From a virus, in the IMG/VR virus record IMGVR_UViG_3300025083_000182, positions 1-27,157 of that record: a stretch of 27,157 bases of DNA. The stretch is one strand, 5' to 3'. Shown here piece by piece: positions 1 to 27,106 of the stretch; the first letter of the stretch is position 1; the number at the start of each line of letters is the position of its first letter. The notes under the pieces were generated by a model. It saw nothing but the letters and a program-made list of their open reading frames with translations. It ran no database searches and was not told the DNA's origin. A program made the position numbers and the translations under genes.

Positions 1-3000
1 TCTTCTTCTTAGCTTCTTTGAGGAAGTTGGCTGCGACCGCTGCCTTTTCTACATCTTTTTGTAAACTGTCGTAGCTGGTTTGTCCTGTGAGAAGCTCTTG
101 GATCTGTGATACTTCAAGCTCATCACCGTAAACATTTCTGCTTCTAAGCTCTATCAATTCAAAGCTCAATTCATTCCCCATTACTTGGTAGAATACCGAG
201 TCGGGGTTCTTGGTATAAAGACCACTAGCATCTTTAGCAAAATCTGTCATCACTCTGTGCGATGGGTAGCCCTGCATTGGCCCAAAGAACAGCATATTGC
301 CGATGACGTTTCGGATGTAAAAAGCAGGGGAGCCTAGAGTCTTAGAAACTAGGGAAAGCCCAACCATCTTTTTAACTGTACGCATTATCAGGCCCTGCAC
401 TTCCGCCATCTCGTTGAGTGGGTCGGTTATGTCGGGTTGCTTACCCCCGAATAGAGTCTCTAAATTAGACGCTACTTCTTTGGGGACATACATATCCGCT
501 AATGGATTAAGATCACTAGTCCCTTCGACTAGGACTGGTTCCCAGTTTGGATACTTATCTCTGTTTTTTAAGTATTCTTTTTGGCTAACCATCCAAGGAG
601 TTCCCTCAACCTTGCCAGTTTCTGGATCAACGCCCGTCCCTAATGCTTTAAGTTTATTAAAGAATGCCTGATTAGAAATCATACTCGCCGTGTGATTCAA
701 CGAATAGCTGAGATTATAAATCCCTGTATCTTCTTGGAACTCCCCAAGAAGTTCTCGGATTTCTTGAGGGATCTCCTTCTTTTCATTGATGGTCTCTACA
801 ATCTTTTGAAGTGGATCTCCGTCCTTGAACCCTGCACCCTGTAGCACTAAATCCTGTTGCCCCATTTCTCGTTGGGAAGTTAGGAACTTCTTACGCGCTT
901 GCCCTTGAGAATAGCCATCGATGAAATCATTCATCATAGCTGTTGCGTTTGATTGCATCTTTGAGTTCTTGGCAGTGGCCTCGGCTTGCACTTTTATGGT
1001 CGCTTGAGCTTTGGTTAAACCATCCGCTTCCATTATCTTCTGAACCTCCGTATTCTGAAGTTGTTTCATAAAGTAAGCGACTGCTCGCTCGCGAACTTCG
1101 GCATATTGATCAGACTCTTTAACTTGCTTAGAGAAGTTACGGTCTTCAAACATACGGTAAGACCGTGTTAAATACAGACCCCGATTGAAATCAAAAGCCA
1201 TGTTCAAATCTTCGGGATTCATGGTAGGTCCAAAGACCTCGATTGCTTTCTTTGAAAGCTGGTCTTGGAGCTGACGCATCTCAATAACGAGGTTATACAT
1301 ATCAGGAGAGATCTTTAACAGATCATCCATTGCTTTATCCCTCTGGGCGAACTGCTTCTCCCTATTACTTTCACGGAAGTCCATTGTCATCTGCTTCTTA
1401 GAAGCTTCAGCTATGTCGATGGCTGCGTTCTTTTCATCAGCCGTGGGGAGCGCATTAGCTTTGGCGAGGTCTTGCTCATACGATGCTTGAACAAGATCCT
1501 CTTGCTTCCTCGTTAGCTGTGATCCTTCGGTAGTTCCCGAAGCTCTCGCGATTAACTCGGCGGGAATGTTATCCGCTTCTCCTGTTATAGAACTTAGTCG
1601 TTCGTTTTCTTTTTTTAAGATCCTGTTGTGTTTCTGTTGAAGAGTATCAACAAGACCTTTAGTCTCGCGAACAAACGCTTTGTTCTGGTCGTAGAAGTTT
1701 ACAACTCTCTTGTCGGCGGAGCGAACAAAAGTTTTGTAGAGGAACTTCATTACCTTATTCTTATTTGTAAACTCGTAGTCCTTGCTGAACTCTAAGAGGG
1801 GGACATCAAGAATCTCTAACCAGTTACCAATTGATTTTTCCTGCATCTGAACTTCATCGAGGAAGTTAGGCAGCTTTGAATCTTTACTGAACTGAGATCC
1901 AGTAGCGGGTTGTGGAGTCGGTTGTCCTGCTGGTTGAGTAGCTTGTGATCCCGAAACACCAGCGTCTGAATCTTGCTGCTCTGTTAAACGATTTCGTAAA
2001 CTAGCCGTATCTGTCTTAGCAGTCGGCTCTAGCATATTAACATCGACGGCTTGCTCCATAAGTTTCTCGATGACCGCATACGGATCGCGAGGATTGTGGT
2101 GCATAATACTAGGAGCGGGCTTGTAGTTAAGTGACAAACCCCTGATCTCCCTGACCGTGTTGTTAACTGCCTTACGCATCTCAGGAGAAACATCATCCAG
2201 TGTCCTGTGGTAAGTCAGCTTACTGAGGAATGCCTTCATGTAAGTGATGAAGGTCGGAATCAAGGATGGGTTGGACTGCAAGAACGCCATCTGTTGGTTG
2301 GTCGTCCTTCCGGTAGTGGCTAACTCGGTATGTCTGGCGATAGCTTTCTTAGCTAAATTAAACCGCTCCGTAGCAGCAACCTTTCCGTCTTCACTCCTAA
2401 GTCTATCGAATGCGTCTTGTTGTTCGTCGAGTGGATATGCTTCTTTAATCTCAGCTTCCAGCTCTGACTGAGTCATTGCCTTAGTTATGTCAACATACTG
2501 AGTATCAGATATCATCGTATCTGCTGCCGCTTGACCCACTGCCTTATTTAAAATAATTCCAATAGCGTGTTTCCTCCTTTGGGCATCTAGTCCCGATACT
2601 CCTTGGTTAGCTAGATACAGAGCTGCTCGTTTTGGGTTGAGTATAAGCGCCCCCGTAGCACTATCTACAGTTGCTATCTCTGGGCTTGCATTATCTACAA
2701 CTACATTCAGCTCACTCGGAATATAAGCACCAGCAAACTCAACAATCTCTTCTGCTCTCTGCTCAAGCTTTTCATTCACGGCAGCATCGTTTGCCATGTC
2801 CATGTCCTTCGCCATCTGGTGTAGATCAGCTTGAGACTTGTGAATCCTATCTGCAGCCTGACTCGCGAACGCTGCTTTAGTTTCGGGCTGGGGTGTGTAG
2901 GCTCTTTTGGTCAGGTCAAGTGCGTCTTGGAGAGCTGACTTTAGTTCGCTAGTTCTGATCCCCAGCAACTTAGCTAATGCTCTGATAGCTTTTTGCAAGA

Positions 3001-6000
3001 GGTTGGGTTTACCCTTCGCAGGAATTACACGGTTGAGGAATGATTGAAACTCAGGATCAGTGAGGATGTGTGTCAGAAACTCGTCGATGTTAGATGACGC
3101 ATATATCAGATTTCCCTTCCCTGATTTTTCTGCTAAAGGTTTCGCAATACGGAGCAGCTCCTCTAAGTTCGCGACCGCTTCGTTCTGCGCTTCTGTTCTA
3201 GATTCCGGTGGTGTTTGGAAGATGTCATGCGTGAACACATGGAGATACTCGTGAATTAAAGTATCTGCCACACCTCTTTTCCCAGTTCTATCTACGTTAA
3301 CTATTACCGTCCTCTGCCCCAATCCATCGACGTAATACACCCCCGCATAAGAAGATGGGGAACCCTCAATAAGAAATCTTACAGAACGAATAAGCTCTTT
3401 GTTCTTGAGTAGAGTTTTAGCTAGAAGTCTGAGGGGCTTATGTCCTGACTCTGCAATCTCTTCAAGAGAGTCGATCACAGATTCGGGATCGTCATCTAGT
3501 AGACCTAGCTCTGCTATCTCTCTTAGGTTTTTGCGGCGACTTTGTTTCCTAGAACGACCATCATTAACCGCTCTTTTTCGGTGGGCATGAGCTTGATCCC
3601 GTACTTGCGTGTAAAATGTTTTTACATCCCCATACGAAAGCAATGTGTCTTTTCCAACCAACTGTTGTAGCTCTGCCTTAATCAGATTATACAAGTTGGT
3701 ATCTGTATCTAAAGCTCCTTGCAGTGTGGGGCTAGTTACCCCCAGCAAAGTGAGTGCGTTTTTCATGTCCTGCCCTAATTTGTATGTAGGGTTGATGACA
3801 TCTAGATTACGACTACTAAGTTTCTGCTCCAAGATAGCGGCTGGTTTATTAGTCCCACCTTGTGAAGCTAAGAAGTAAACCAGTTCTACAGCTACTTGCT
3901 CAGATGAATAGTCGTTGGTTACTTTCTTCCCTCCGTGATATTCGTTATTGAGAAGTTCTTTGACATCTCTTCGGAGCCGTTCATCTAATTTAATAGCCGT
4001 AGCTACGTCATCAATTTTTGAAGCCGTATATTTACTTATCTTCGGAACACTGAGGGGTTCGATAGTTAGAACTTTAGGTGCGTTGAAACCTCTGTCGGCT
4101 TGTTTCTCTGTGTCGTGTAAGTCTGGACGCTTAGTTATGTCCGTGTCGGGTTCAAGCAACGAAGCCACATCACGGATAGCCTGTGATTTTCTCTCGGCTT
4201 GAACCTTGCTGAAAAACTTAGCGTTCTTTATGGCGGATGATTTTAAATCTATGTTAACTGAAGGGCGGAGTTTTGATTCCGCTTCATTAGCTATAGCAAT
4301 AATTTCTGAAATAGACTTTTCCTTTACTAACCCACTATTCCGGTATTCCTCTGTAGCAATCGCTAGTGCGTCTGCCTGATTCTGTGCAGTGTCAGGAAGC
4401 TTCGATATCTTTGAATTGTAGATATCTCTTATAGCGATTGCGTCTCTTTGTTCTTGAGTAACCGCGCTCCCTTCTATGCGAGCTACAACAGAGGCAATAT
4501 TTTTGTCTCTCCTTTTTGGGCCTGAGTATACCTCTAGAGGGGGTATCCCTAAATTACTTTCGATAGTAGAACGGAGCTTGCCCATAGAGCTTAGAGGTGC
4601 GACTTCAGAAGAAACATAGATCTGCCCCAATTTATTAGTCTCGCGGATATCTCCGATCTGTTCATTAAGGAGTTCGGAAGCTTGTCGTAGCAAAGGGCTT
4701 CCATAAAAATTATCTATGTCTGCTTGTGATCCTTTGTTAAACCACCCTTTTTCTTCACCAAGTCCAAAAAACGGAACCCACTTCCCCGCATTCGGTTTTC
4801 CAGCCATCCCTGTTGAAAGGTAGAAAGGAACAGTTATCCCATTTATTTTTCTAAATACAATGGCACGATCCACAAGCTGCACTATGGGTGATGTGTCCCC
4901 ATCCATAGTAGGAACATCTACTTTTATAGGGATGCCCTCCAATCTAAAGTCGTTACGGACTGTTCCTTCAGATCGTGAACCAGCCTCTTTAGCTGCGTTA
5001 TAAATCTGCTCTTGCAGATCTAGGCTCATGGTTATAGCCGCAGCATCGACGTAATCTTTATCAAGATTAACTCCTGTGGCGGTTATGATCTTCTTGAGAG
5101 CAGGAAGATTTTTAGCATCTTTTAATAACTCTGGCACTTTTGCCGAAACTGGTTTCTTTCCAGTTGCTGCTCGGAACGGACTTACCACCTTAACATCATT
5201 GATAGCCTCTAAATCAATGCTGTTCTTTAAAGTAGTAAGTCTTCGGATCTTCGTCTTAACAGGACCGTAATCTGGTTCGTGAACCCCGATCTTGTTTATT
5301 GGAGTCTTAGCCGAGATCAAGCCTCCCTTTACAGGAACCATGATGTCGGTAACAAAGTATTGGTCCCCCTGTTTTTCTATAACGAAAGACTTATTAGTAT
5401 TGGGGTTAGTCGCCTGATCTTCCGTTAATGGGATAGCTACGTTATTCCGCAACAAGGTAACCATTCCAGCGGGATCGTTGTTAAACACACCGTTGCCATA
5501 CTTATCAATGATGACCGTCCCCGAAGGAACTAAAGTATTAGGAAGCCTTACACCCCCATCCGTTCTTTTCGGATTTATTGTGGGGTATCTCTCAGCAATC
5601 TTTTCTTTGATTACTTTTTCTACTGCTAGTAAATATTTTGCATCTGTCCTTTCAAGATCAAGGCCCAGTTGCTCTAGGTTCGTTCCAATATCTGCGACCG
5701 GAAAGCCCTGCTCAATGAGTGCTTCTAGCTTATCTAAATCTTTCTTCGTTACCTTCGCTGGTTTAGCTTCATCAGCGATAGCTTTTTCCCGTGCATCAAT
5801 TGCTTGTTTGACAAGACCACTTGCTGTTTCTGGGGAGACCAACTTTCCCGAAGCAACTAAAGCCTCAATCTCTTTCAATCGTTCAGCTTGAAGTGCTTCT
5901 GGAAGCTCTTCAACAACCTTCATTGCCTCGATGTATCTCCTTTCCCTAGCTTCGATATCCTTGATGGAAAAATCAAACTTCTGTTGAGGAGTCAGTGCGG

Positions 6001-9000
6001 GTTTAACATCTGGGTTACCTCCGGTAACATCCGCATTCGCAGCGTCTGGATTCGTGTCCGTTCCGGTGACATCAGTAATTGCATCACTGGTCGTGACGAT
6101 AGGAGAAGCGTTGCCCTTTGCGTTTTTCTTTTTATTTTCTTCGTTAATTATCCGCTGCTGATCGTCTTGTGTAACATTAGCTTCGGCATCATCCGCTATT
6201 CTCTTAGCTTCTTCTGCTATTTCTTCTTCCGTTTGCTCTACTGAATCATCCCCTTCTGGTTTCTCTGCAGATTCTTCGGCTTCTTTAGCCGCGCGCTCTT
6301 CAGCATACTTAGCTCTAGTTCTTTTGATAAACTCCGCATTAGTTTGGGGGGCGGTTTTTTCTAAATCTTCAAACCTCTTTAATTCATTATTATCCTCCAA
6401 CCTCTGCCTAAAGTCAGACTCAACTTTAGCCTCAATATCAGCCATCCGATTGAGATCCGTAACTCTATCCCCTCCGAATTCTCTAGCCGCAGCACCAATA
6501 GCGGGGGATGCCCCACCCATAAGCCCTCCAATCATAGCCCCTTGAAGAGCTTGGAAAAACGTCTCCTCTAAAGAGAAATCTTGTCTAGCCCAAGCGGATT
6601 GAATAATTGAGTTTGCGAACTCATCGATGAATTCTTCGCCAGCTTCACCAGCAGCCCCCCTAAGAATTTGACCACTTATTCCCACACCCGCTTCTTTGAA
6701 GGTGGAGGAAACAGCATCCTCCATGTATTTGAGAAACGCTTTATCCGAAGAAACCCGACCCACCATTCTGTCGGTTTGTTTCTTAATTGTTCTAAGACTG
6801 ACTCCTGTAAGGACAGCACTCTCAAGACCACCATATTTACCACCACCTAGTTTTCCTGCAATCGCGGTTATGAGTCCAGTAGTTGTTCCAGCGGAAATCA
6901 TGGACCCCCAAGCGGTGTCGTGAGCAACTTCCTTTACTCTTTCTTCACTCCAACCATCTACCCACTCTCCATTAACTTGATACCGTTGTGTGTAATCATC
7001 AGCAACGGCTTTGTGAACTGCACCATAAGTCATACTACCTGACCGCAAAGCAGCGACTCCAAACTGAGGAGTCGTGATGCCCAAAGTTTTTGCTAATTTG
7101 CTGTTATACCCTTTATACGCAGCAATCATCTGGCGGTTCGATAAACCTTTAAATGAACCCGATGCCTGTAATCTTCGTAAGGCAGCTCCTGTGCTTTCTT
7201 TTATGCTTCTCCCCGCAACATCTCGCACCTGTTGCTTTAGCGCCGAATTAAAAGTGCTTTTAAGTACAGCTTTTGCTGTAGCGGTTGCCCCCTGCTTTAA
7301 AGTGAAGTAACCCGCTGCTGCCCCAACAGTTATTCCCCCTGATGGTATGGCGAGTAGTCCTGCGGCGAGAGTAATAATAGCATCTATCGCCATAGGAAAC
7401 ACTTGCTCCGATGCTTGTTGAAAAAACCCAGCGTCTTGCCCGAAGATTTGTCTCATCTGATTTAGATGAGCTTGGGCTTTAGCGTTTTGTAGTAATCCCT
7501 GTTTACCATACTCCGCCCCAAACAATGCTCCCGCCCCGTAATACAAAGTTGACCAGCCCTGAGTAAAACTCATACCAAGCCCCTGTAACCCCAAGTTGGG
7601 ATCTTCGTCAGCTACAAATTTTTCAACAATCTCTGCTTGGGTCAGACCATTTTGTCTCCCCTCCAACTCTGCGGTAGCGAACTGTTCATCGTATTCTTTT
7701 CTTAGGATATCACTCCGAGTATCCGCCAATATCTCGTTACTCGCCAACCTCTTCGCGTTTTCAATCTCTACCTCCTCGTCAGAAAAATCATTTTGCTTCA
7801 ACGATCTCCTAAACTTCTCTTCATGCAGCATCAAAGCGGGTTGAATAAACGTCCCCCTATACTTTCGTCGAACAACATTTTGAGATAGGTCGTCATCATC
7901 TTCTTCATAGATGAGGGTCGAGTCGAGGGTTTTAGATCCATGCCCAGCTATCTCGACAACCATGTCATCAACAACATCTTCTAGAATATCTACACTAGCC
8001 CCTGTCTTCCTTGCAAGATCCTCAATAAGGTCGCGTCGAGTTTGTTCTACGTCATCTTCAAACTCTTCCCGTAAGCCTTCAAACCTTTGATAGTCTTCAG
8101 AATATTTTTTTTCTTCATCGTCTCCGGTAGCCCAGTTCCAACTCTCTCTAATGTTAGAAGCCATTGAAACGACTACTTCCCCCGTAGAATCCCAACCCTT
8201 ATCTGCCCATCCCCAAGACTTATCTTTACCCAGTGCAGTAGCTAGTGCCTCAAATCTAGCCCTAACTTTTTCATCTTTAAGATCTGTGAAGTCCTCTTTT
8301 AAATCTACAAACTCTTCAACTTGGGCTTGCACTCTTTCTCGTATATCAACCTCATACGCTAACAAGCCGTTCTTATCTTTTTGAACTTCTCTTGATTCCC
8401 TCAAAGAAAAAACATCTCTAGGAACTACACCAAACTTACTTCCTTCTCTTAATAACTCCGCTTCCGATAAACTTTCATCCATCTTTCCACCAAGAAAGAC
8501 ACGCTGACCACTTTTGTTGAAGTAAACTCCAGCCGACAACTCATCCTTTTCATACAGATCTGTAATATAGTTCTGCCTCTTTTGACGAGCTATCTCATGC
8601 ACCTCCGTAGCATCTAGATCTTCCGGCAGTTCTTGTCCTGTCTCCACCGCTTTTGCGTATCGCAAAATCTTCTCTTGCTCCCCCTCCTCGAAATCCATCG
8701 CCTCCATCCCAACACCCATGTTGTCCGCAACAAACTGGACATCTTTTTGATTTGATGGAAGAACCTCCGAATACTGAATGATAGCTTCTTGAGCCTGTTG
8801 GTAATTAGACTGTGTTAATATACCCTTCTTAATAAGAACATTCTCAAAACTTTCTTGGAATTTTTTCTCAGTATCTTCGTTATATTTGCCAGCCGCAATA
8901 TATTCAAGCCGAAGATTATCTAAGTGTTTAGTTCTACCCTCCAATTCATTTTCAAAGGGGTTTTCTGTAGCCCACACACTATATGGAGTGGGGCTAAATG

Positions 9001-9034
9001 GCGCTGTTGTTTTGGGTTCGCTTGGGTCTGACAT
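1..9034 (-). CDS. Giant internal virion / polyvalent-type protein, zincin metallopeptidase domain (3' end outside window)
   Basis: One reading frame opens at ATG 9034 and is still open at base 1, giving at least 3,011 codons. The N-terminal ~500 residues are charged and helix-rich. Residues about 548-577 and 832-850 are Gly/Ala-rich hydrophobic segments that could insert in or cross a membrane, with an EAGEEFIDE motif between them. An acidic, probably disordered linker lies near 900-1010. Residues about 1390-1465 hold a GKWVPFFGLG-containing segment that I recall from other large phage proteins. HEYLH at 1928-1932, with E1985 in a DEFLTH context, looks like a zincin active site (HExxH plus a downstream Glu). 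Residues 2907-2913 read IRNVIGN, resembling the late domain of giant phage polyvalent proteins (LPD38-like, from memory). The position after TerL and two small virion-like genes suggests an injected internal protein. Translated start is unambiguous; no SD is seen. The exact role is inferred. Confidence 0.85.
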   Translation of the reverse strand, partial: MSDPSEPKTTAPFSPTPYSVWATENPFENELEGRTKHLDNLRLEYIAAGKYNEDTEKKFQESFENVLIKKGILTQSNYQQAQEAIIQYSEVLPSNQKDVQFVADNMGVGMEAMDFEEGEQEKILRYAKAVETGQELPEDLDATEVHEIARQKRQNYITDLYEKDELSAGVYFNKSGQRVFLGGKMDESLSEAELLREGSKFGVVPRDVFSLRESREVQKDKNGLLAYEVDIRERVQAQVEEFVDLKEDFTDLKDEKVRARFEALATALGKDKSWGWADKGWDSTGEVVVSMASNIRESWNWATGDDEEKKYSEDYQRFEGLREEFEDDVEQTRRDLIEDLARKTGASVDILEDVVDDMVVEIAGHGSKTLDSTLIYEEDDDDLSQNVVRRKYRGTFIQPALMLHEEKFRRSLKQNDFSDEEVEIENAKRLASNEILADTRSDILRKEYDEQFATAELEGRQNGLTQAEIVEKFVADEDPNLGLQGLGMSFTQGWSTLYYGAGALFGAEYGKQGLLQNAKAQAHLNQMRQIFGQDAGFFQQASEQVFPMAIDAIITLAAGLLAIPSGGITVGAAAGYFTLKQGATATAKAVLKSTFNSALKQQVRDVAGRSIKESTGAALRRLQASGSFKGLSNRQMIAAYKGYNSKLAKTLGITTPQFGVAALRSGSMTYGAVHKAVADDYTQRYQVNGEWVDGWSEERVKEVAHDTAWGSMISAGTTTGLITAIAGKLGGGKYGGLESAVLTGVSLRTIKKQTDRMVGRVSSDKAFLKYMEDAVSSTFKEAGVGISGQILRGAAGEAGEEFIDEFANSIIQSAWARQDFSLEETFFQALQGAMIGGLMGGASPAIGAAAREFGGDRVTDLNRMADIEAKVESDFRQRLEDNNELKRFEDLEKTAPQTNAEFIKRTRAKYAEERAAKEAEESAEKPEGDDSVEQTEEEIAEEAKRIADDAEANVTQDDQQRIINEENKKKNAKGNASPIVTTSDAITDVTGTDTNPDAANADVTGGNPDVKPALTPQQKFDFSIKDIEARERRYIEAMKVVEELPEALQAERLKEIEALVASGKLVSPETASGLVKQAIDAREKAIADEAKPAKVTKKDLDKLEALIEQGFPVADIGTNLEQLGLDLERTDAKYLLAVEKVIKEKIAERYPTINPKRTDGGVRLPNTLVPSGTVIIDKYGNGVFNNDPAGMVTLLRNNVAIPLTEDQATNPNTNKSFVIEKQGDQYFVTDIMVPVKGGLISAKTPINKIGVHEPDYGPVKTKIRRLTTLKNSIDLEAINDVKVVSPFRAATGKKPVSAKVPELLKDAKNLPALKKIITATGVNLDKDYVDAAAITMSLDLQEQIYNAAKEAGSRSEGTVRNDFRLEGIPIKVDVPTMDGDTSPIVQLVDRAIVFRKINGITVPFYLSTGMAGKPNAGKWVPFFGLGEEKGWFNKGSQADIDNFYGSPLLRQASELLNEQIGDIRETNKLGQIYVSSEVAPLSSMGKLRSTIESNLGIPPLEVYSGPKRRDKNIASVVARIEGSAVTQEQRDAIAIRDIYNSKISKLPDTAQNQADALAIATEEYRNSGLVKEKSISEIIAIANEAESKLRPSVNIDLKSSAIKNAKFFSKVQAERKSQAIRDVASLLEPDTDITKRPDLHDTEKQADRGFNAPKVLTIEPLSVPKISKYTASKIDDVATAIKLDERLRRDVKELLNNEYHGGKKVTNDYSSEQVAVELVYFLASQGGTNKPAAILEQKLSSRNLDVINPTYKLGQDMKNALTLLGVTSPTLQGALDTDTNLYNLIKAELQQLVGKDTLLSYGDVKTFYTQVRDQAHAHRKRAVNDGRSRKQSRRKNLREIAELGLLDDDPESVIDSLEEIAESGHKPLRLLAKTLLKNKELIRSVRFLIEGSPSSYAGVYYVDGLGQRTVIVNVDRTGKRGVADTLIHEYLHVFTHDIFQTPPESRTEAQNEAVANLEELLRIAKPLAEKSGKGNLIYASSNIDEFLTHILTDPEFQSFLNRVIPAKGKPNLLQKAIRALAKLLGIRTSELKSALQDALDLTKRAYTPQPETKAAFASQAADRIHKSQADLHQMAKDMDMANDAAVNEKLEQRAEEIVEFAGAYIPSELNVVVDNASPEIATVDSATGALILNPKRAALYLANQGVSGLDAQRRKHAIGIILNKAVGQAAADTMISDTQYVDITKAMTQSELEAEIKEAYPLDEQQDAFDRLRSEDGKVAATERFNLAKKAIARHTELATTGRTTNQQMAFLQSNPSLIPTFITYMKAFLSKLTYHRTLDDVSPEMRKAVNNTVREIRGLSLNYKPAPSIMHHNPRDPYAVIEKLMEQAVDVNMLEPTAKTDTASLRNRLTEQQDSDAGVSGSQATQPAGQPTPQPATGSQFSKDSKLPNFLDEVQMQEKSIGNWLEILDVPLLEFSKDYEFTNKNKVMKFLYKTFVRSADKRVVNFYDQNKAFVRETKGLVDTLQQKHNRILKKENERLSSITGEADNIPAELIARASGTTEGSQLTRKQEDLVQASYEQDLAKANALPTADEKNAAIDIAEASKKQMTMDFRESNREKQFAQRDKAMDDLLKISPDMYNLVIEMRQLQDQLSKKAIEVFGPTMNPEDLNMAFDFNRGLYLTRSYRMFEDRNFSKQVKESDQYAEVRERAVAYFMKQLQNTEVQKIMEADGLTKAQATIKVQAEATAKNSKMQSNATAMMNDFIDGYSQGQARKKFLTSQREMGQQDLVLQGAGFKDGDPLQKIVETINEKKEIPQEIRELLGEFQEDTGIYNLSYSLNHTASMISNQAFFNKLKALGTGVDPETGKVEGTPWMVSQKEYLKNRDKYPNWEPVLVEGTSDLNPLADMYVPKEVASNLETLFGGKQPDITDPLNEMAEVQGLIMRTVKKMVGLSLVSKTLGSPAFYIRNVIGNMLFFGPMQGYPSHRVMTDFAKDASGLYTKNPDSVFYQVMGNELSFELIELRSRNVYGDELEVSQIQELLTGQTSYDSLQKDVEKAAVAANFLKEAKKK

Positions 9035-9080: not shown

Positions 9081-10181
9081 TTAACCGCCCATAATTTTCT
9101 CGGGATCTGGATCTCCTGTAGGTGTTCCTGTAGAGGTTCCTGTAGAGGTTCCTGTAGAGGTTCCTGTAGAGGTTCCTGTAGAGGTTCCTTTAGGATCTTG
9201 GCCCATTAAAAATTTATTTCGCTTCCTACGTTTTGCCCCAATCCCTTGTAGGGTACGAGAACGAATTGTTTGTAATTGTTTTTGTAGTGCAGCAGCAATA
9301 TCTGTTCCCGTATCTGGGACTTTGAGAGATTCCCCATTCGGAAGTACGAGACCACCGTATGATGCTTCAAAATCTACATTACCGTCCTCAGCTAACTTTT
9401 TATCGACTGCTACTTGTCTAAGAAGATCTTTCACTTGCTCAAGAGTTGTCTCCGCAATGGCTACCTCATTATTAAATATTTGAGATTCCCTAGACTCTCG
9501 TTCTTTTTTCTCCAGTTTCTTACGCTCCTCAATATTTTTAGTTACCGCAAAACCAGCGTTTCTGAGATTAGCTCTTTCCCTTGCCGTGAGGTTTGTACCC
9601 CCAGCAGAATCTGGATCGAGATAAGATTGTCTCAAGTCTTCGACTTGTTCTTCCGCCTCCATTCTAAAAATAGTATTAGCATCTAATCCTGTCGTGTCCG
9701 CAGACCTTTTTCGCTCGTCTTTTCTCCTTATCCTACGAGATAGTTTCTCATTTCTCTGCTGCATCTGAGATCCAATGAAGCTACCCGCCGCGAGTAAAGA
9801 TTGTTGCGCGACTTTACTATTAGCAAATGTGTCGGCGTTTTGCAGTTGGATAAGACTTAGTTGTTCTTGCCGCTCAAAAGGATTAAGCTGATCGTCTTCC
9901 ATAGTCATTTGAATTTGACCCAAAAGATCTTCGGCCCTTTGGTCCGCTTCCCGCTCATCACGAAGCATTCTTTTTCTTTGTTTAAAGTCAAAAATGCTCG
10001 CCTCGTATGCAAGATCAGCCGCTCTTTCTTGCCTTAATTGCCCCCGCAACTTAATCATCAAGTCAAGTTGGGGCATGATCTGTTGATCAGCTTTCGCATT
10101 TGCGAATGCAGATTCTCTTGCCGTAAACCCAAAGGTGTTTCTTTCGGGTGCGATGTCCCGCTCAAAATTAAATTCAGACAT
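9081..10181 (-). CDS. Coiled-coil probable internal virion protein with GTST tandem tail
   Basis: 366 residues, very rich in Glu, Arg, Gln and Lys, and predicted by eye to be long alpha-helix or coiled coil over about residues 20-300. There is no enzymatic motif. The C-terminus (about 328-352) is a Gly-Thr-Ser-Thr tandem repeat encoded by perfect 12-nt units, followed by a short acidic end (DPDPEK). The start ATG shares one base with the stop of the upstream gene (TAATG), so translation is probably coupled. It sits between a basic 320-residue protein and the giant ORF, an arrangement reminiscent of the three-gene ejection-protein sets of T7-like podoviruses. That functional link is inference from order and composition only. 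I do not recognise a named family. Confidence 0.8.
   Translation of the reverse strand: MSEFNFERDIAPERNTFGFTARESAFANAKADQQIMPQLDLMIKLRGQLRQERAADLAYEASIFDFKQRKRMLRDEREADQRAEDLLGQIQMTMEDDQLNPFERQEQLSLIQLQNADTFANSKVAQQSLLAAGSFIGSQMQQRNEKLSRRIRRKDERKRSADTTGLDANTIFRMEAEEQVEDLRQSYLDPDSAGGTNLTARERANLRNAGFAVTKNIEERKKLEKKERESRESQIFNNEVAIAETTLEQVKDLLRQVAVDKKLAEDGNVDFEASYGGLVLPNGESLKVPDTGTDIAAALQKQLQTIRSRTLQGIGAKRRKRNKFLMGQDPKGTSTGTSTGTSTGTSTGTSTGTPTGDPDPEKIMGG
9112..9195 (-). repeat. 12-nt tandem repeat encoding Gly-Thr-Ser-Thr
   Basis: Five perfect copies of gttcctgtagag (plus-strand reading) at 9124-9183, flanked by one degenerate copy on each side (9112-9123 and 9184-9195). The unit is a multiple of three, so copy-number change keeps the frame of the host gene. 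Confidence 0.9.
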
Positions 10182-11143
10182 TATCGGCGGCGGTTGCGGC
10201 GGTTATTATTAGATCCAAAACCAAGCCTAGTATCACTAGCTAAAGCACCTCCTCGAAACTGCTGAACAACGTCTCGATTTCGCCCGTTACGATTTCTCCC
10301 GTTACGATTTCTCCCGTTACGATTTCTCCTGTTACGATTTCTTCCTCCTCCGCCTCCTCGGAGTTCTTCGTCGGATAAGCGGATTAATCGTTGTGTATAA
10401 CCATCGTTCATACTTCGTATTTCAGCAGCGGTAGCTGCATCCCGATCCATCTTAGCTCGCAGAGCTGGTGTCATAATTGCGGGAGCTGAAGCTTCTGCTG
10501 AACGACCGTAGTCCAATGCAATAGCTTCTGCGGCTCTACCATATCCTTTTTTACGTAATCGATCCGCTATTCTTAATTTTCCGTTCCTAGAGTAGAGGTT
10601 CCTCGTTTCCCCAAGGCGACCCCCACCACCCAACGTCCTGTTAGGACTGTTAGCCCTAGCAAAGAAGTCATCATAATCAGCTTTCTGTTTCGCTTTTTTC
10701 GCATCTCTATTAGCTTGCATCTTTTCTATCCTCGACCCAACAAAATTCCTACGCTCTTCAAGGATCTCACGATCCATTGCCGATTCGTCAATCCCAAAGT
10801 CACCATCAGGATCAATACCCGTTTCTCTAATACGACTTAGTTCTGCCTCCCGCGCATCAGGATCTCTCAATTTAAAAGCGTTTGTTATATCATCCCTCAA
10901 ACCAATTCTTTGGTTCAACCTAGCTTGCTCAGGTGTTTCAGCTTCGTCTACGTCTTCGTCTTCTTTTGAAAGGGATCTAATAACTCTACGATCCAAGTTA
11001 TCCAAGAACTTCCGGTCCTTCTTTCTTATAGGCTTTTGCTTATCAAAAGCGGAGATTAATCTTTGAGCGCCTTGTGAAAACCCAGAGCCGATGCTTTCGG
11101 CTGCATCTTTTCCGCCCTTTAAAAGATCTTGCAAGAATGACAT
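10181..11143 (-). CDS. Basic probable internal virion protein with RNG-rich tandem tail
   Basis: 320 residues. The N-terminus (FLQDLLKGGKDAAESIGSGF) is an amphipathic helix-like stretch. Residues about 30-170 are highly charged and helical, with many Arg, Asp and Glu. Residues about 263-295 are a low-complexity Gly/Arg/Asn tract built of Gly-Arg-Asn-Arg-Asn units encoded by 15-nt tandem repeats, and the protein ends in NNNRRNRRR. The strongly basic tail could bind nucleic acid. It lies 31 bases after the TerL stop and overlaps the next gene by one base. By position and composition it is a candidate small ejection/internal virion protein. No named family is recognised. Confidence 0.78.
   Translation of the reverse strand: MSFLQDLLKGGKDAAESIGSGFSQGAQRLISAFDKQKPIRKKDRKFLDNLDRRVIRSLSKEDEDVDEAETPEQARLNQRIGLRDDITNAFKLRDPDAREAELSRIRETGIDPDGDFGIDESAMDREILEERRNFVGSRIEKMQANRDAKKAKQKADYDDFFARANSPNRTLGGGGRLGETRNLYSRNGKLRIADRLRKKGYGRAAEAIALDYGRSAEASAPAIMTPALRAKMDRDAATAAEIRSMNDGYTQRLIRLSDEELRGGGGGRNRNRRNRNGRNRNGRNRNGRNRDVVQQFRGGALASDTRLGFGSNNNRRNRRR
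10270..10344 (-). repeat. 15-nt tandem repeat encoding Gly-Arg-Asn-Arg-Asn
   Basis: Units of cgttacgatttctcc: perfect or near-perfect copies at 10285-10299, 10300-10314 and 10315-10329, with degenerate copies at 10270-10284 and 10330-10344. The reading frame is kept through the array. Confidence 0.88.
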
Positions 11144-20762: not shown

Positions 20763-21273
20763 GAGCTGCAATTGGCAAATGATACCCATCCACTTTGTAA
20801 GTAAAACCGTATTCATCGGGTTCCCCCCGAAGTTTGTATTCAGCTTTTCTACGAATAGTGAGTGATGTAGCCCAACCAAGAAGCCAAGCTTTCTGGAAAT
20901 CTTTACGGACACGAACGAAGAAATAAGCTTTGGCGGATAACTTTTTTCCTTCGGGACAATTAACAGAAGCTGTGTAGTGGGGTTGAGGAACCCCAGCGCA
21001 GCTTTTTGATTTAATGTCTATTGTTCGGTTACCTAGAACATAATCGTGTTTAAAAGATTCATCTCCCTCATAAATAGCTTGGGGATATAAACATTCAAAA
21101 GCAACCTCCCCCAAGAAACCAGTCATACGTCCGGCTCCTCTAGTAAAAGAATTGGGCAAGACTCCCAGCTTTTCACTCCTCTCAAAAGCCTCTTTGACAT
21201 GGTCACTAGTGGGCGTAAAGACCAACATACCGTTGGATCTTTTGAAATGTTTTGGTAATTTCTTTCTACTCAT
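20737..21273 (-). CDS. PD-(D/E)XK nuclease-like protein
   Basis: 178 residues. FLGEVAFE (E56, E60), HDYVLGNRTIDIKSK (D77, then D86-I-K88) and a following beta strand (AYFFVRVRKD) fit a small restriction-endonuclease-fold protein, with D77 and D86xK88 as candidate catalytic residues. A DNA-processing role (degrading host DNA, trimming branches) is inferred. It is the last gene of the lysis-led minus-strand unit, overlaps the preceding gene by eight bases, and runs tail to tail into the primase-helicase with 26 bases of overlap. Confidence 0.6.
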   Translation of the reverse strand: MSRKKLPKHFKRSNGMLVFTPTSDHVKEAFERSEKLGVLPNSFTRGAGRMTGFLGEVAFECLYPQAIYEGDESFKHDYVLGNRTIDIKSKSCAGVPQPHYTASVNCPEGKKLSAKAYFFVRVRKDFQKAWLLGWATSLTIRRKAEYKLRGEPDEYGFTYKVDGYHLPIAALRKAGSLK

Positions 21274-21568
21274 CCGTCCCTACTCGTTTTAAAAAACGCT
21301 CGTAGGCAGGGAAGAAGACTTCATCCATACACCGCACCACAGCTTCCTGTTCAAAGGTCTCGCAAAACCCCACCCCCGATAGGCACAGTGATGCTTCCAT
21401 CAACTCATGGCGAACAGTGCTTAAAAGGGCTTTTCCTTCTAAATGTTCGGAAATAAAAATAATCTTTCGTTCGTGACTGTAGTACCCATACAAGTCCTCG
21501 TCACTAAGATCTGAAAAACGAATCTTAATTGTTTGCCCCGCTACCCTTATACTTTTGGGTATAGTCAT
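21266..21568 (-). CDS. Small metallopeptidase-like protein with degenerate HExxH
   Basis: 100 residues, laid out like the small phage zincin proteins related to ImmA/IrrE or SprT-type domains: an N-terminal beta region (TIKIRFSDLSDEDLYGYY), a strand KIIFIS, then helix STVRHELMEASLCLSG. The expected HExxH is HELME (H54, E55, E58), so the second histidine is replaced by glutamate. A downstream acidic helix (ETFEQEAVVRCMDEVF) follows. Zinc binding is therefore uncertain. It starts on the stop of the amidase gene (ATGA), so it is coupled to the lysis cassette. Confidence 0.6.
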   Translation of the reverse strand: MTIPKSIRVAGQTIKIRFSDLSDEDLYGYYSHERKIIFISEHLEGKALLSTVRHELMEASLCLSGVGFCETFEQEAVVRCMDEVFFPAYERFLKRVGTDE

Positions 21569-22113
21569 TTTGCATAGAATTTATTTATTCCTTCGGCATA
21601 AACTGAGGCTAATTTATCTAAATCTGATTGTATTAGATCCACATCAGATTGACTAGATCCAAAGAACGGCTCTGCGATACAAGCATAACAAGGAGTCTTA
21701 CGGAGAAACATAGCACCTCTTGATCCCTTACCCCTTGCTTTGATGCCACGAGACGCTAAATTAGGATACGCTTCGTCCATTGCTTCCTTTAATTTCAAAG
21801 CTAATTTTTTCCCTCCCCTGCTAGTTTCCCAATAAAGCCATTCATGTCCTGTTGCTTTGGGACTAGCCGAATTAAAATGTAATTCAATACATGCGTTAAC
21901 TCCGTCTTTCTTCATATTACGAGAGACGTAATTCATAGCCCCGACATAACTGGAAGCTTTGTAATCGTCATATACTTTATATGGAACTTTTAGTTTCGGT
22001 GTAACTAACGAAATCAATTCGGTGTTGAATGTGTGTTCACTAACGCTGGGCTTCCCAACTGTGTAAGCGCCACTATCTCCTCTCCTTGAATGACCTATAG
22101 CTAAACCAATCAT
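21565..22113 (-). CDS. N-acetylmuramoyl-L-alanine amidase (endolysin), Amidase_3 type
   Basis: 182 residues; cleaves the amide bond between MurNAc and L-Ala of peptidoglycan at lysis. Zinc ligands fit H8 (IGHSRRGDSGA), E26 (SVSEHTFN) and H79 (IELHFNSA); E148 (IAEPFFG) fits the catalytic glutamate. No signal peptide or cell-wall-binding domain is present, so it needs a holin to reach the wall. The start ATG overlaps the stop of the upstream membrane protein (ATGA). It is surrounded by small membrane and spanin-like genes, confirming a lysis cassette. Confidence 0.9.
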   Translation of the reverse strand: MIGLAIGHSRRGDSGAYTVGKPSVSEHTFNTELISLVTPKLKVPYKVYDDYKASSYVGAMNYVSRNMKKDGVNACIELHFNSASPKATGHEWLYWETSRGGKKLALKLKEAMDEAYPNLASRGIKARGKGSRGAMFLRKTPCYACIAEPFFGSSQSDVDLIQSDLDKLASVYAEGINKFYAK

Positions 22114-23771: not shown

Positions 23772-25826
23772 TTACTCTGGCTCTGGACACAAGCTACTTT
23801 GGGGACATTCAACTACCTTAATCGGTTCACTAAGACTCCCTGTGGGGGCGTAAACTTCTACAGTTGTCCCTGTCGTTAGAACTTCCGTAGTATTTGTTGA
23901 GGTAACCACATCTACAGGGTTCAAGTCTTTTACAACATTTACGGTGTTTCCTGCCGTAGCTACTTCAGAAGTAGGCAAACTAGCTACAACAGATACTGTT
24001 GAACTGGAAGAAAGCACACTTACTCCTGTAGTAGAAGTAACAACATTCGATGTGACGGTTGTAACTTCTGAAACAAAAGTTGTTGTTGGAATAGATTGCA
24101 CAACATCTACAGGGGTTGCCGTATTGAGAACCGTAGTTGTTGGGACAGATTGTACTACGCTTACGGGACTTCCCGCATCTACCACATTAGTGGTGCTAAG
24201 TGTTTTAACAACGCTCGTAACGCTGGCTCCCGTAATTAAAGTTGGGAATGTCGGAGGATTAGTTGCATATTGTCCTGTTGCGGCAACACCCAAAACCCAA
24301 ACACAATCACCTTGCGAGTAATTACCATTACTGTCAGTTGTCCCACAACCCGCTACTTTAACAGCGGTCATACCGCCCCCCGCAGAAGCAGCTCCCCCAC
24401 GCCAAACATCAGTGACCATGTCGGTTGACGAATCAGGGGCCAATGCAACAGGAGTGGTCCCATCGGAAGATAGAACTGAAGTCATGTTACCCGTTGTAAC
24501 ACCAGCCGCTACAGTTGTGGTTGTAGCCACCCCAGAGACTGAAGTAAAATTACCTGTTGTGACGGGGATACAAGCAAGTTTATATGTAGTCTCATCAACT
24601 CCATGAACTTCAGTCTTATTCCCAGACGTAACTGGAGCTGCAGCAGTGGTTACTGCCCCAGCCGATACGACAGTAGCCATGTTGCTGTTGGTGGGTTCTA
24701 GTGCTACGGTGACCGTTCCCGAACTAGTCAAGACCGCTGTAACTTGAGCTTCAGTAGGCATCTGAGCCACAGAAGTTGTAGACCCTGCAGTTAAAACAGT
24801 GGTGGTTCCTGATGCGGCTGATAGAACAGTAGTCTTGTTAAGTTCTACACAAGTGAGGTCATTTAAACAGGTAACGAGTCCGTCTTCGACAACCGCAACA
24901 CCCTTACCATCTATTTTCCAATGCTTGTTGAATTCATTCCCCGTGACATGAATTTCAGTGGCCGCTGCTTGAGCATCGTTATATTTTACTTTTACTTGTG
25001 GGTCTCCTGTAAATGGAGATGAAAGGCCGGACTGCGACCGTTCATTGATACTCCTAAATTCTTTTTCGTCTTTATCTTGTCGGACATATTTCTTGTAAAC
25101 ATTTTTACCCGCCCCCAAGTTTTTAATTTTATTATACCCCCTGTGCCAATGGAGCGGCCCTCTAATTCCTTCTAGACTCCCATACAACCTAGCTTCCCTG
25201 CCGTCTTTCTCTTCATTCCACTGGTGACGATAAAGCTTTCCATCTTTTACCCAAACAATGGGGACAGAGTATTTTCCTTCTTTACCATTATATCCACTTT
25301 CATCTGGTAGTTCAAACTGAACAGAATCCGGTAACTCCTTACTCTTCGCTAATCTATACAACGCACCATCTGGGTTATCGGGGTCTGCGATTACTTTTCC
25401 CTGCTCGTCAGTATTGAATTCTGAATAGATAACACACTCTCGACTCGCTTTTATTGTTAAAGGTTCTAATGCGTGTTTCTCCACACAAAGATTACTTTTA
25501 GGGTGCATCTCATATAAGTGTGCTTTTGAAATACACACCCTCTTATCCCCGTCTGGTTCGTATCGGTAAGGTTCATGTTCTACTCGATACTGCTCGGGAA
25601 TCGGTGGGGCTTCCCTGCCCACATCCACTCTATGAGTATAAAATTCAGCGGGGGCATCTGATGTTCCTTCTGTCGTTGGAGAAAACTTAAAAGAAGGAAT
25701 CTCTGAAATCTCAGCGTCTTGAATAGAAACATCTGCTTCTTCGGGCTGCGAGAACTCAGTAATAGCTTCCTCACTTTCTCCAAAGAGGAAGTTCTTAATT
25801 TTTTGAAAGAATCCTTCTCTAGCCAT
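23772..25826 (-). CDS. Fibre-like structural protein with long Thr/Val repeat shaft
   Basis: 684 residues from the ATG at 25826 (MAREGFF), two bases after the upstream stop; a start at 25856 would overlap that gene and is less likely. Residues 1-20 are an amphipathic basic helix, followed by an acidic Pro/Glu linker and a compact region (about 60-270) rich in Tyr, Trp, His and charged residues with several Cys. From about residue 327 to 676 the chain is almost only Thr, Val, Ser, Ala and Gly, arranged as ~21-22-residue units and then ~18-residue units. Such alternating T/V repeats suit beta-helical or triple-beta-spiral shafts of tail fibres. It ends with a Cys-containing acidic tail (SSLCPEPE). 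A host-recognition or collar role is inferred. Confidence 0.75.
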   Translation of the reverse strand: MAREGFFQKIKNFLFGESEEAITEFSQPEEADVSIQDAEISEIPSFKFSPTTEGTSDAPAEFYTHRVDVGREAPPIPEQYRVEHEPYRYEPDGDKRVCISKAHLYEMHPKSNLCVEKHALEPLTIKASRECVIYSEFNTDEQGKVIADPDNPDGALYRLAKSKELPDSVQFELPDESGYNGKEGKYSVPIVWVKDGKLYRHQWNEEKDGREARLYGSLEGIRGPLHWHRGYNKIKNLGAGKNVYKKYVRQDKDEKEFRSINERSQSGLSSPFTGDPQVKVKYNDAQAAATEIHVTGNEFNKHWKIDGKGVAVVEDGLVTCLNDLTCVELNKTTVLSAASGTTTVLTAGSTTSVAQMPTEAQVTAVLTSSGTVTVALEPTNSNMATVVSAGAVTTAAAPVTSGNKTEVHGVDETTYKLACIPVTTGNFTSVSGVATTTTVAAGVTTGNMTSVLSSDGTTPVALAPDSSTDMVTDVWRGGAASAGGGMTAVKVAGCGTTDSNGNYSQGDCVWVLGVAATGQYATNPPTFPTLITGASVTSVVKTLSTTNVVDAGSPVSVVQSVPTTTVLNTATPVDVVQSIPTTTFVSEVTTVTSNVVTSTTGVSVLSSSSTVSVVASLPTSEVATAGNTVNVVKDLNPVDVVTSTNTTEVLTTGTTVEVYAPTGSLSEPIKVVECPQSSLCPEPE
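23850..24240 (-). repeat. Distal ~18-residue Thr/Val repeats of the fibre-like gene
   Basis: Degenerate units such as VSVVQSVPTTTVLNTATP, VDVVQSIPTTTFVSEVTT and VSVVASLPTSEVATAGNT follow each other, with the consensus V-x-V-V-x-x-(V/I/L)-P-T-T-x-V. The DNA copies have diverged at third positions. Confidence 0.7.
24395..24845 (-). repeat. Proximal ~21-22-residue repeats of the fibre-like gene
   Basis: Units such as FTSVSGVATTTTVAAG-VTTGN, MTSVLSSDGTTPVALAP and MATVVSAGAVTTAAAP-VTSGN share the pattern T-x-V-x-S-x-x-x-T-T-x-x-A-x-x-P-x-T-x-G-N. They form a second repeat family distinct from the distal one. Confidence 0.65.
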
Positions 25827-25828
25827 AA

Positions 25829-27106
25829 CTAAAATTTCGGTGGAAACACCGTCCAAGTAGTTCTCACATAACCACCCCTAGAAGGTTCTTGTTTATCTCT
25901 AGCAACAAGACCTGTGGCAGCTATTTGGTTTAAATTAGGTGGTGTAGTAACAGGTAACTGTTTATTGTATATGGTGTATTTGTAAACTGGATCTACTGTT
26001 CCAGTTGTGCATCTAACAAAGCCACCATTCATTAGGCACGGGGGTACGGAAATACGGACGTAAGGAGTTCCAAAAGTGAATGATTGTGGGACCATTGCTT
26101 TTGCTTCTACTCCAGTGAACTTAGAGGGGGAATACTGAACGGTTACTTTAGTCTTACACGGACCTCTATATGCTTCGGGGTTCATGTGATACTCAGGGAA
26201 AGCTAATACCTGACCATCATGTCGCTCGTAACCAATAACATTTATACTCTCTAAAACAGGTGGGAACGTGTGATCCATGCTGGTAAAATACTCATCCACT
26301 AGAAGCGTGTTACCAGCGCCCACACCAGCAATAGTTTCTTGCTTTACAACTTCATACCAATCAGTGGATATCTGTCTTCCTTCTCTGTAAGCAGCAACTT
26401 TTAAATTAGACTCTGCATCGTGGGTTACGAGTGTCGTACTCCACCAAGCATTATCGGGGTCTAGTATAAGTTCATCAATTGTTTTTGTTTGCCCCGTAGG
26501 TTGACCAGTTGGTATTTCTCCCGTGTAGTAATACTTCAAGGCGCTTTTGAGATTTCGGTGAGATAGATCATCCCACTTGAGAGTCTCAATAGTAGCCCGA
26601 ACAAAATAGGTTCTTTGTTCTACAACAAAGATTCCATCCAACTCGCGGTCACCAATTCTTTTCTGCTGGCGACCCATCAGCACATAACCTTTTCCAGTAA
26701 AGTTAGCGGCGGCGGGGGAGGTAGGCATCGGGGAACCCGCCACAACTGTGCTATCGTCTTCTGTAAACGAAGAGCGTAAGCTGATATATGTCCTTACTAC
26801 AGTATCAAACTTGGTCTGACCCAAGCTAGATTGAGAATACTCAAAATTATAATCATCCTGAGAAGTTCTCGTGTTTGCGTAATAGTAATAATAAAACTGA
26901 CCATTAGGGTCAGCTTGCTTCACATACGCTAGGGTATGATCAGGAAAGTTTACCGTGTCAGGATGCGCGGTTCCGTATGCAGGAGGTTTCTTCCCAACCC
27001 TCTGGGCATCAACAGTTTCAAAGAACAACAAATCCTGCACATTCGGAGATACGAATGTGAGGACAGTCTGCCTCTGAGGGCTGGGCTGATTCCTCTGTAT
27101 AGGCAT
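25829..27106 (-). CDS. Probable virion structural protein
   Basis: 425 residues, beta-rich, Tyr- and Thr-rich, with no enzymatic motif, membrane segment or coiled coil that I can see. Features include a Tyr run (FYYYYY, about residue 72), repeated FTGKGY/FTGVEA elements and the C-terminal VRTTWTVFPPKF. The composition and neighbours point to a tail or appendage component. The ATG shares a base with the stop of the upstream partial gene (TAATG), and the stop is two bases before the fibre-like gene, so the three are probably one translational unit. No family recognised. Confidence 0.75.
   Translation of the reverse strand: MPIQRNQPSPQRQTVLTFVSPNVQDLLFFETVDAQRVGKKPPAYGTAHPDTVNFPDHTLAYVKQADPNGQFYYYYYANTRTSQDDYNFEYSQSSLGQTKFDTVVRTYISLRSSFTEDDSTVVAGSPMPTSPAAANFTGKGYVLMGRQQKRIGDRELDGIFVVEQRTYFVRATIETLKWDDLSHRNLKSALKYYYTGEIPTGQPTGQTKTIDELILDPDNAWWSTTLVTHDAESNLKVAAYREGRQISTDWYEVVKQETIAGVGAGNTLLVDEYFTSMDHTFPPVLESINVIGYERHDGQVLAFPEYHMNPEAYRGPCKTKVTVQYSPSKFTGVEAKAMVPQSFTFGTPYVRISVPPCLMNGGFVRCTTGTVDPVYKYTIYNKQLPVTTPPNLNQIAATGLVARDKQEPSRGGYVRTTWTVFPPKF

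Follow-up and report, generated by a model that had tools for sequence, protein, structure and literature searches.

The virion RNA polymerase of phage N4, which is ejected with the DNA and carries an HExxH motif in its C1 domain (PMC12633501), has previously been classed as a polyvalent protein with a peptidase (PMC5512222), and a zincin-like metallopeptidase is the commonest domain of the polyvalent class (Iyer et al. 2017, PMC5512222). The marine phage described here, whose window of 27,157 bases is an entire virus record, encodes a 3,512-aa protein (hereafter the giant) that can be compared part by part with this and other described proteins. N4 gp50 (PDB 9pnr, 11gp) resembles the giant in size, at about 3,500 aa, and in its C1 zincin, but has an RNA polymerase domain for which the giant gives no match and a C2 domain that is not homologous to the giant by profile. 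The phiKMV internal core protein gp37 (PDB 9sfn, chain G) has the zincin in common with the giant (hhalign 96%), whereas it is only 1,337 aa long, lacks detectable C-terminal homology and has no comparable cargo slots that we could see. Vibrio phage 1.205.O NVP1205O_20 (3,130 aa) has a zincin region 31-33% identical to that of the giant and, unlike the giant, carries LPD38 and a methyltransferase region.

Three further proteins share other parts. Cellulophaga phage phi18:3 gp123 (1,935 aa, a virion protein by MS/MS) and Pelagibacter phage HTVC027P gp85 (1,342 aa) have a C-terminal module like that of the giant, but are much shorter and show no slot-1 domain, and gp123 has no zincin match. Conversely, Cellulophaga phi14:2 (Crassvirales) g067, a 1,797-aa virion protein also detected by MS/MS, shares the slot-1 domain and no other part that we could see. 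Like the polyvalent proteins (Iyer et al. 2017, PMC5512222), the giant is multi-domain and combines a zincin with variable domains; it differs from them in that its cargo domain and C-module have no Pfam match and LPD38 was not found. That class is defined by at least two unrelated domains, and the giant unites a zincin, a slot-1 domain and a C-module, each of which occurs singly elsewhere.

The giant gene begins at ATG 9034 on the minus strand and continues stop-free for 3,011 codons to the left window edge, where it is still open, as the earlier note had described from the letters alone. A second IMG/VR contig, L002, differs from the window at 2 of 9,034 nt over this gene and encodes the same 3,011 residues followed in frame by 501 more codons and a stop, so that leftward extension led to a protein of 3,512 aa rather than to a nearby stop and a protein of ordinary size. 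Residue numbers below refer to this 3,512-aa protein, of which residues 1-3011 are those of the window protein (Table 1). The three motifs picked out earlier are all present: EAGEEFIDEF at residues 797-806 (window 6617-6646), HEYLH at 1928-1932 and IRNVIGN at 2907-2913 (window 296-316).

Table 1 Features of the giant gene and its upstream block in the window.
Feature	Residues	Window position	Strand	Remarks
Terminase large subunit TerL, 600 aa		11175..12977	-	phrog_2, 2.9e-11; heads the block closed by the giant
Basic protein, 320 aa, RNRNG repeats		10181..11143	-	Candidate smaller ejection protein; gene order conserved
Charged protein, 366 aa, directly upstream of the giant		9081..10181	-	Candidate smaller ejection protein; gene order conserved
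Giant gene, first 3,011 of 3,512 codons	1-3011	2..9034	-	Likely internal virion / ejection protein, polyvalent class
N-terminal hydrophobic Gly/Ala module	430-900	6335..7747	-	Candidate membrane-active part
Variable slot 1	1349-1596	4247..4990	-	Far shorter in relatives
Slot-1 cargo core, informally 'PFFG domain'	1390-1470	4625..4867	-	FYLSTGMAGKPNAGKWVPFFG...WFNKG
Zincin metallopeptidase domain	1880-2060	2855..3397	-	HEYLH 3239-3253; third-ligand Glu1985 at 3080-3082
Possible second zincin-like domain, degenerate	2100-2250	2285..2737	-	Suggested by AF2 secondary structure and alignment
Variable slot 2 junction	2336-2390	1865..2029	-	...SQFSKDSKLP; nearly empty in the window giant
C-terminal virion module, start	2566-3011	2..1339	-	Continues to 3512 in L002

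Complete giant genes are also found in L003 (3,306 aa), L004 (3,296 aa), L006 (3,260 aa) and L007 (3,353 aa), whose products are 65-93% identical to the window giant. Nei-Gojobori dN/dS over the whole gene is 0.135-0.222, and lies below 0.3 in nearly all regions tested; the giant gene is under purifying selection in related contigs. Because neither the window protein nor its slices had a significant family match in Pfam or PHROGs, we characterised the protein through its relatives instead.

The central part of the protein matches known phage zincins. By tblastn it shares 33% identity, along a stretch of 126 aa, with Vibrio phage 1.205.O, whose zincin region in turn matches N4-like virion RNA polymerases and phiKMV-type internal core proteins from many phages, and direct profile comparison (hhalign) gave 95.3% (E 2e-8) against N4, 96.3% against phiKMV/XAJ24 and 98.0% against 1.205.O, with reversed controls at 0.1-0.2%. 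A search of solved structures with the full alignment returned a single weak match (E 0.09), to phiKMV gp37, which falls in the zincin. Structure matches of alignment A4 to 9sfn and N4 are circular, as both sequences are contained in the alignment itself; the tblastn, full-alignment structure search and hhalign results are independent of them. Among the 12 giants of alignment A7, which are 32-74% identical to P0002, the HExxH motif is invariant and the third-ligand Glu is present in 11, L035 having Asp. The zincin proposed earlier was recovered by homology and is probably active. Two AF2 models reached mean pLDDT values of 63 and 70, a modest confidence, and neither had a significant match in Foldseek; in the zincin, three modelled strands precede the helix with HExxH, which is the order expected. 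The adjoining region 2100-2250 has predicted elements similar to those of the zincin, but its counterpart of HExxH reads NKAVGQ, or NEEIGH in relatives, and it is perhaps an inactive zincin copy.

The C-terminal part leads to a different set of virion proteins. A tblastn search with the last 1,262 aa matched phi18:3 gp123, whose record is annotated as a virion protein by MS/MS proteomics, and others. In hhalign comparisons this module of about 900 aa gave 100% against the gp123 set (E 1e-41, about 760 columns) and 100% against a set of 1,250-1,650-aa phage proteins (E 7.8e-62), with reversed controls at 0.1%. These profile matches place the giant in the phi18:3 gp123-type C-module family. IMG/VR relatives carry the scan motif near the C-terminus, mostly about 360-530 aa from the end, and a search of genome contigs with the C-module alignment found no relative that might point to a host. 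The earlier note suggested that the part beyond the window may hold further effectors; instead these 501 residues are the remainder of this module, and the variable cargo is located mid-protein, in slot 1, with slot 2 nearly empty. In Pseudoalteromonas phage Y3 (L010, 9148-22519), the end sequence of a 3,421-aa giant is repeated as the start of the next gene, which encodes 1,027 aa comprising an ADP-ribosyltransferase and the C-module; this repeat can be read either as a tandem duplication or as an assembly fault splitting one giant gene.

The N-terminal module comprises a hydrophobic segment at 545-563 and the conserved acidic motif EAGEEFIDEF, and shows weak hhalign similarity to the corresponding modules of N4 (2.5%) and Vibrio 1.205.O (13%). 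This hydrophobic module may meet the membrane.

Slot 1 sets the giant apart from its close relatives. Between the flanks at residues 1340 and 1607 the window giant has 268 aa, compared with 62 in L003, 31 in L006, 52 in L004 and in L005, and 106 in L007, and L002 alone was recovered when the extra sequence served as query in a peptide scan. The domain held there, of about 110 aa, follows the pattern FYLSTGxGGKxxxAGKWYPFFGxGxDGWxNKG...GSPxLRxxA and is absent from relatives of up to 94% identity; its presence marks a recent gain, or repeated loss, in the window lineage. It matches the MS-detected phi14:2 g067 (27.7% over 125 aa, E 2e-4), the gene of which adjoins the RNA polymerase gene g066, and also phi4:1 gp038. 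A scan with the slot-1 alignment found the domain in 41 more IMG/VR contigs, the best with 44% identity and E 5e-27; the ORFs range from stand-alone proteins of 186-252 aa to giants, the longest of which has 3,768 aa. The stand-alone proteins, measured stop to stop, lie at L124:7851-8582, L137:7809-8408, L138:7854-8408, L139:7767-8477 and L140:7716-8369; none of the four submitted to a Pfam scan (L124, L137, L139 and L140) was matched. In two giants, L122 (3,639 aa) and L125 (3,674 aa), zincin, C-module and slot-1 domain occur together, and on alignment to P0002 the slot-1 domain falls at about 923 and not at 1390. By this alignment they carry the same cargo on the same three-part scaffold at a different site.

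Three separate parts of the giant, the zincin, the C-module and the slot-1 domain, therefore match virion proteins, and because each points to proteins that are ejected with DNA or have been detected in virions, we consider it likely that the giant is a 3,512-aa internal virion protein of the podovirus ejectosome type and of the polyvalent class, which is packaged and then ejected together with its cargo. The earlier suggestion of a polyvalent or ejection-style protein with a zincin thus stands as to kind, through homology to virion-found proteins, and is wrong or unsupported in detail, both in the place of the cargo and in the LPD, MuF and transglycosylase domains, none of which was found by Pfam or PHROGs. 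A lytic transglycosylase domain as in T7 gp16 likewise had no Pfam match in the giant. In the sequence of events that we infer, running from virion presence and packaging through ejection and a membrane role to protease activity, its target and cargo action, the capsid would contain the giant together with two smaller partner proteins, the 320- and 366-aa products encoded upstream, and at infection the giant would exit through the tail, either before the DNA or along with it. The hydrophobic module near its N-terminus would then join the envelope, its zincin would cleave either the giant itself or a host protein, and the domains in the exchangeable slots would work inside the host cell.

The giant could alternatively be a polyvalent protein that acts inside the infected cell and is not packaged, as a late effector or an assembly factor such as a processing protease. 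In its favour, the virion evidence comes from matched proteins of other phages, and the zincin of some other polyvalent proteins may serve to process proteins ahead of packaging (discussed for P1 DdrB in PMC5512222). Against this reading, which we regard as unlikely, the three matched parts point to proteins that have been detected in virions or seen in structures of virions or ejection proteins, and the giant is the last gene of a TerL-led block, behind two smaller genes. Ejection genes often sit last in such a block, after smaller genes. The order TerL-small-mid-giant is kept in L002, L007, L017 and L018, with sizes that vary somewhat. The two genes between TerL and the giant (window 9081-11143, minus strand) each have a simple repeat at their end, (GTST)n in one and (RNRNG)n in the other. 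Other window genes encode a RuvC-like resolvase, an exonuclease, a family A DNA polymerase, a DUF5906 primase-type protein and an amidase endolysin; adjoining the last is a small M78/IrrE-type metallopeptidase-like gene (21266-22113, minus strand), and a 694-aa protein rich in Val/Thr/Ser repeats (23772-25856, minus strand) has no family match. Since tblastn searches with TerL and one tail-type protein gave zero matches among isolated phages, we call the phage a podovirus presumptively.

A tape-measure protein, long because the tail is long, would account for the length and the helical content, but is very unlikely: one and the same C-module terminates proteins whose lengths vary between 1,250 and at least 3,870 aa (shorter ones being mostly cut off by contig ends), a zincin and domain insertions are present, and the matches fall on internal virion proteins, virion RNA polymerases or cargo-type virion proteins. 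That the giant is a divergent N4-type virion RNA polymerase is scarcely credible, despite the similar size (3,512 against 3,500 aa) and the common zincin domain, since neither Pfam nor PHROGs gave an RNA polymerase family match and the C-module is unrelated to N4 C2 at the profile level (hhalign 0.3%, the level of the reversed control); we rejected this identity. Two further assignments were rejected. The giant is not an orthologue of phiKMV gp37, to whose C-terminal region its C-module has no detectable homology (hhalign 0.3%), nor a member of LPD38 (PF18857), for which 0 of 12 members had a Pfam match and hhalign gave 7% over 106 columns. These profile tests instead describe an ejectosome-like polyvalent protein of the gp123-type C-module family. 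An assembly chimera or read-through artefact, which a metagenomic contig with one open end might suggest, is already refuted by complete genes in five contigs and purifying selection throughout.

Slot 2 measures 35-58 aa in L026, L028 and the window clade, whereas the distant relatives L027, L030 and L032-L036 have it filled with about 680-1,090 aa of cargo. DUF7178 (PF23802) recurs in this cargo in L027, L030 and L032-L035; by eye alone, other pieces in these same proteins resemble ADP-ribosyltransferase and methyltransferase-like folds. In L031-L036 the motif LQSRxG(A/S) stands at the borders of the inserted pieces, in two or three copies per protein (for example, at residues 1803, 2108 and 2733 of L035). 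When giants were searched without bias for 5-mers occurring three times in the same protein, nothing exceeded shuffles except one 5-mer in L027, so that the observation rests on the LQSRxG motif itself. Is this motif a linker, a recombination site or a protease site? Self-cutting by the zincin between cargo domains is an attractive guess. Extended further, it would make the giant an injected polyprotein whose own zincin cuts at recurring junctions between domains, LQSRxGA/S in relatives and SQFSKDSKLP here, and so frees cassette cargo swapped among phages, with the slot-1 domain as a cassette shared with Crassvirales virion cargo; we offer this as a possible scheme, on balance improbable.

The giant joins the literatures on polyvalent proteins and on podovirus ejectosomes in one uncultured phage family. 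It presents one scaffold, a zincin with a C-terminal virion module, on which the slots carry different cargo in relatives with up to 94% identity elsewhere. The C-module and the slot-1 domain are two protein families named by none of the Pfam scans, their novelty being judged against the libraries and papers of the present search. Together, these features suggest a possible and testable route of cargo release inside the host.
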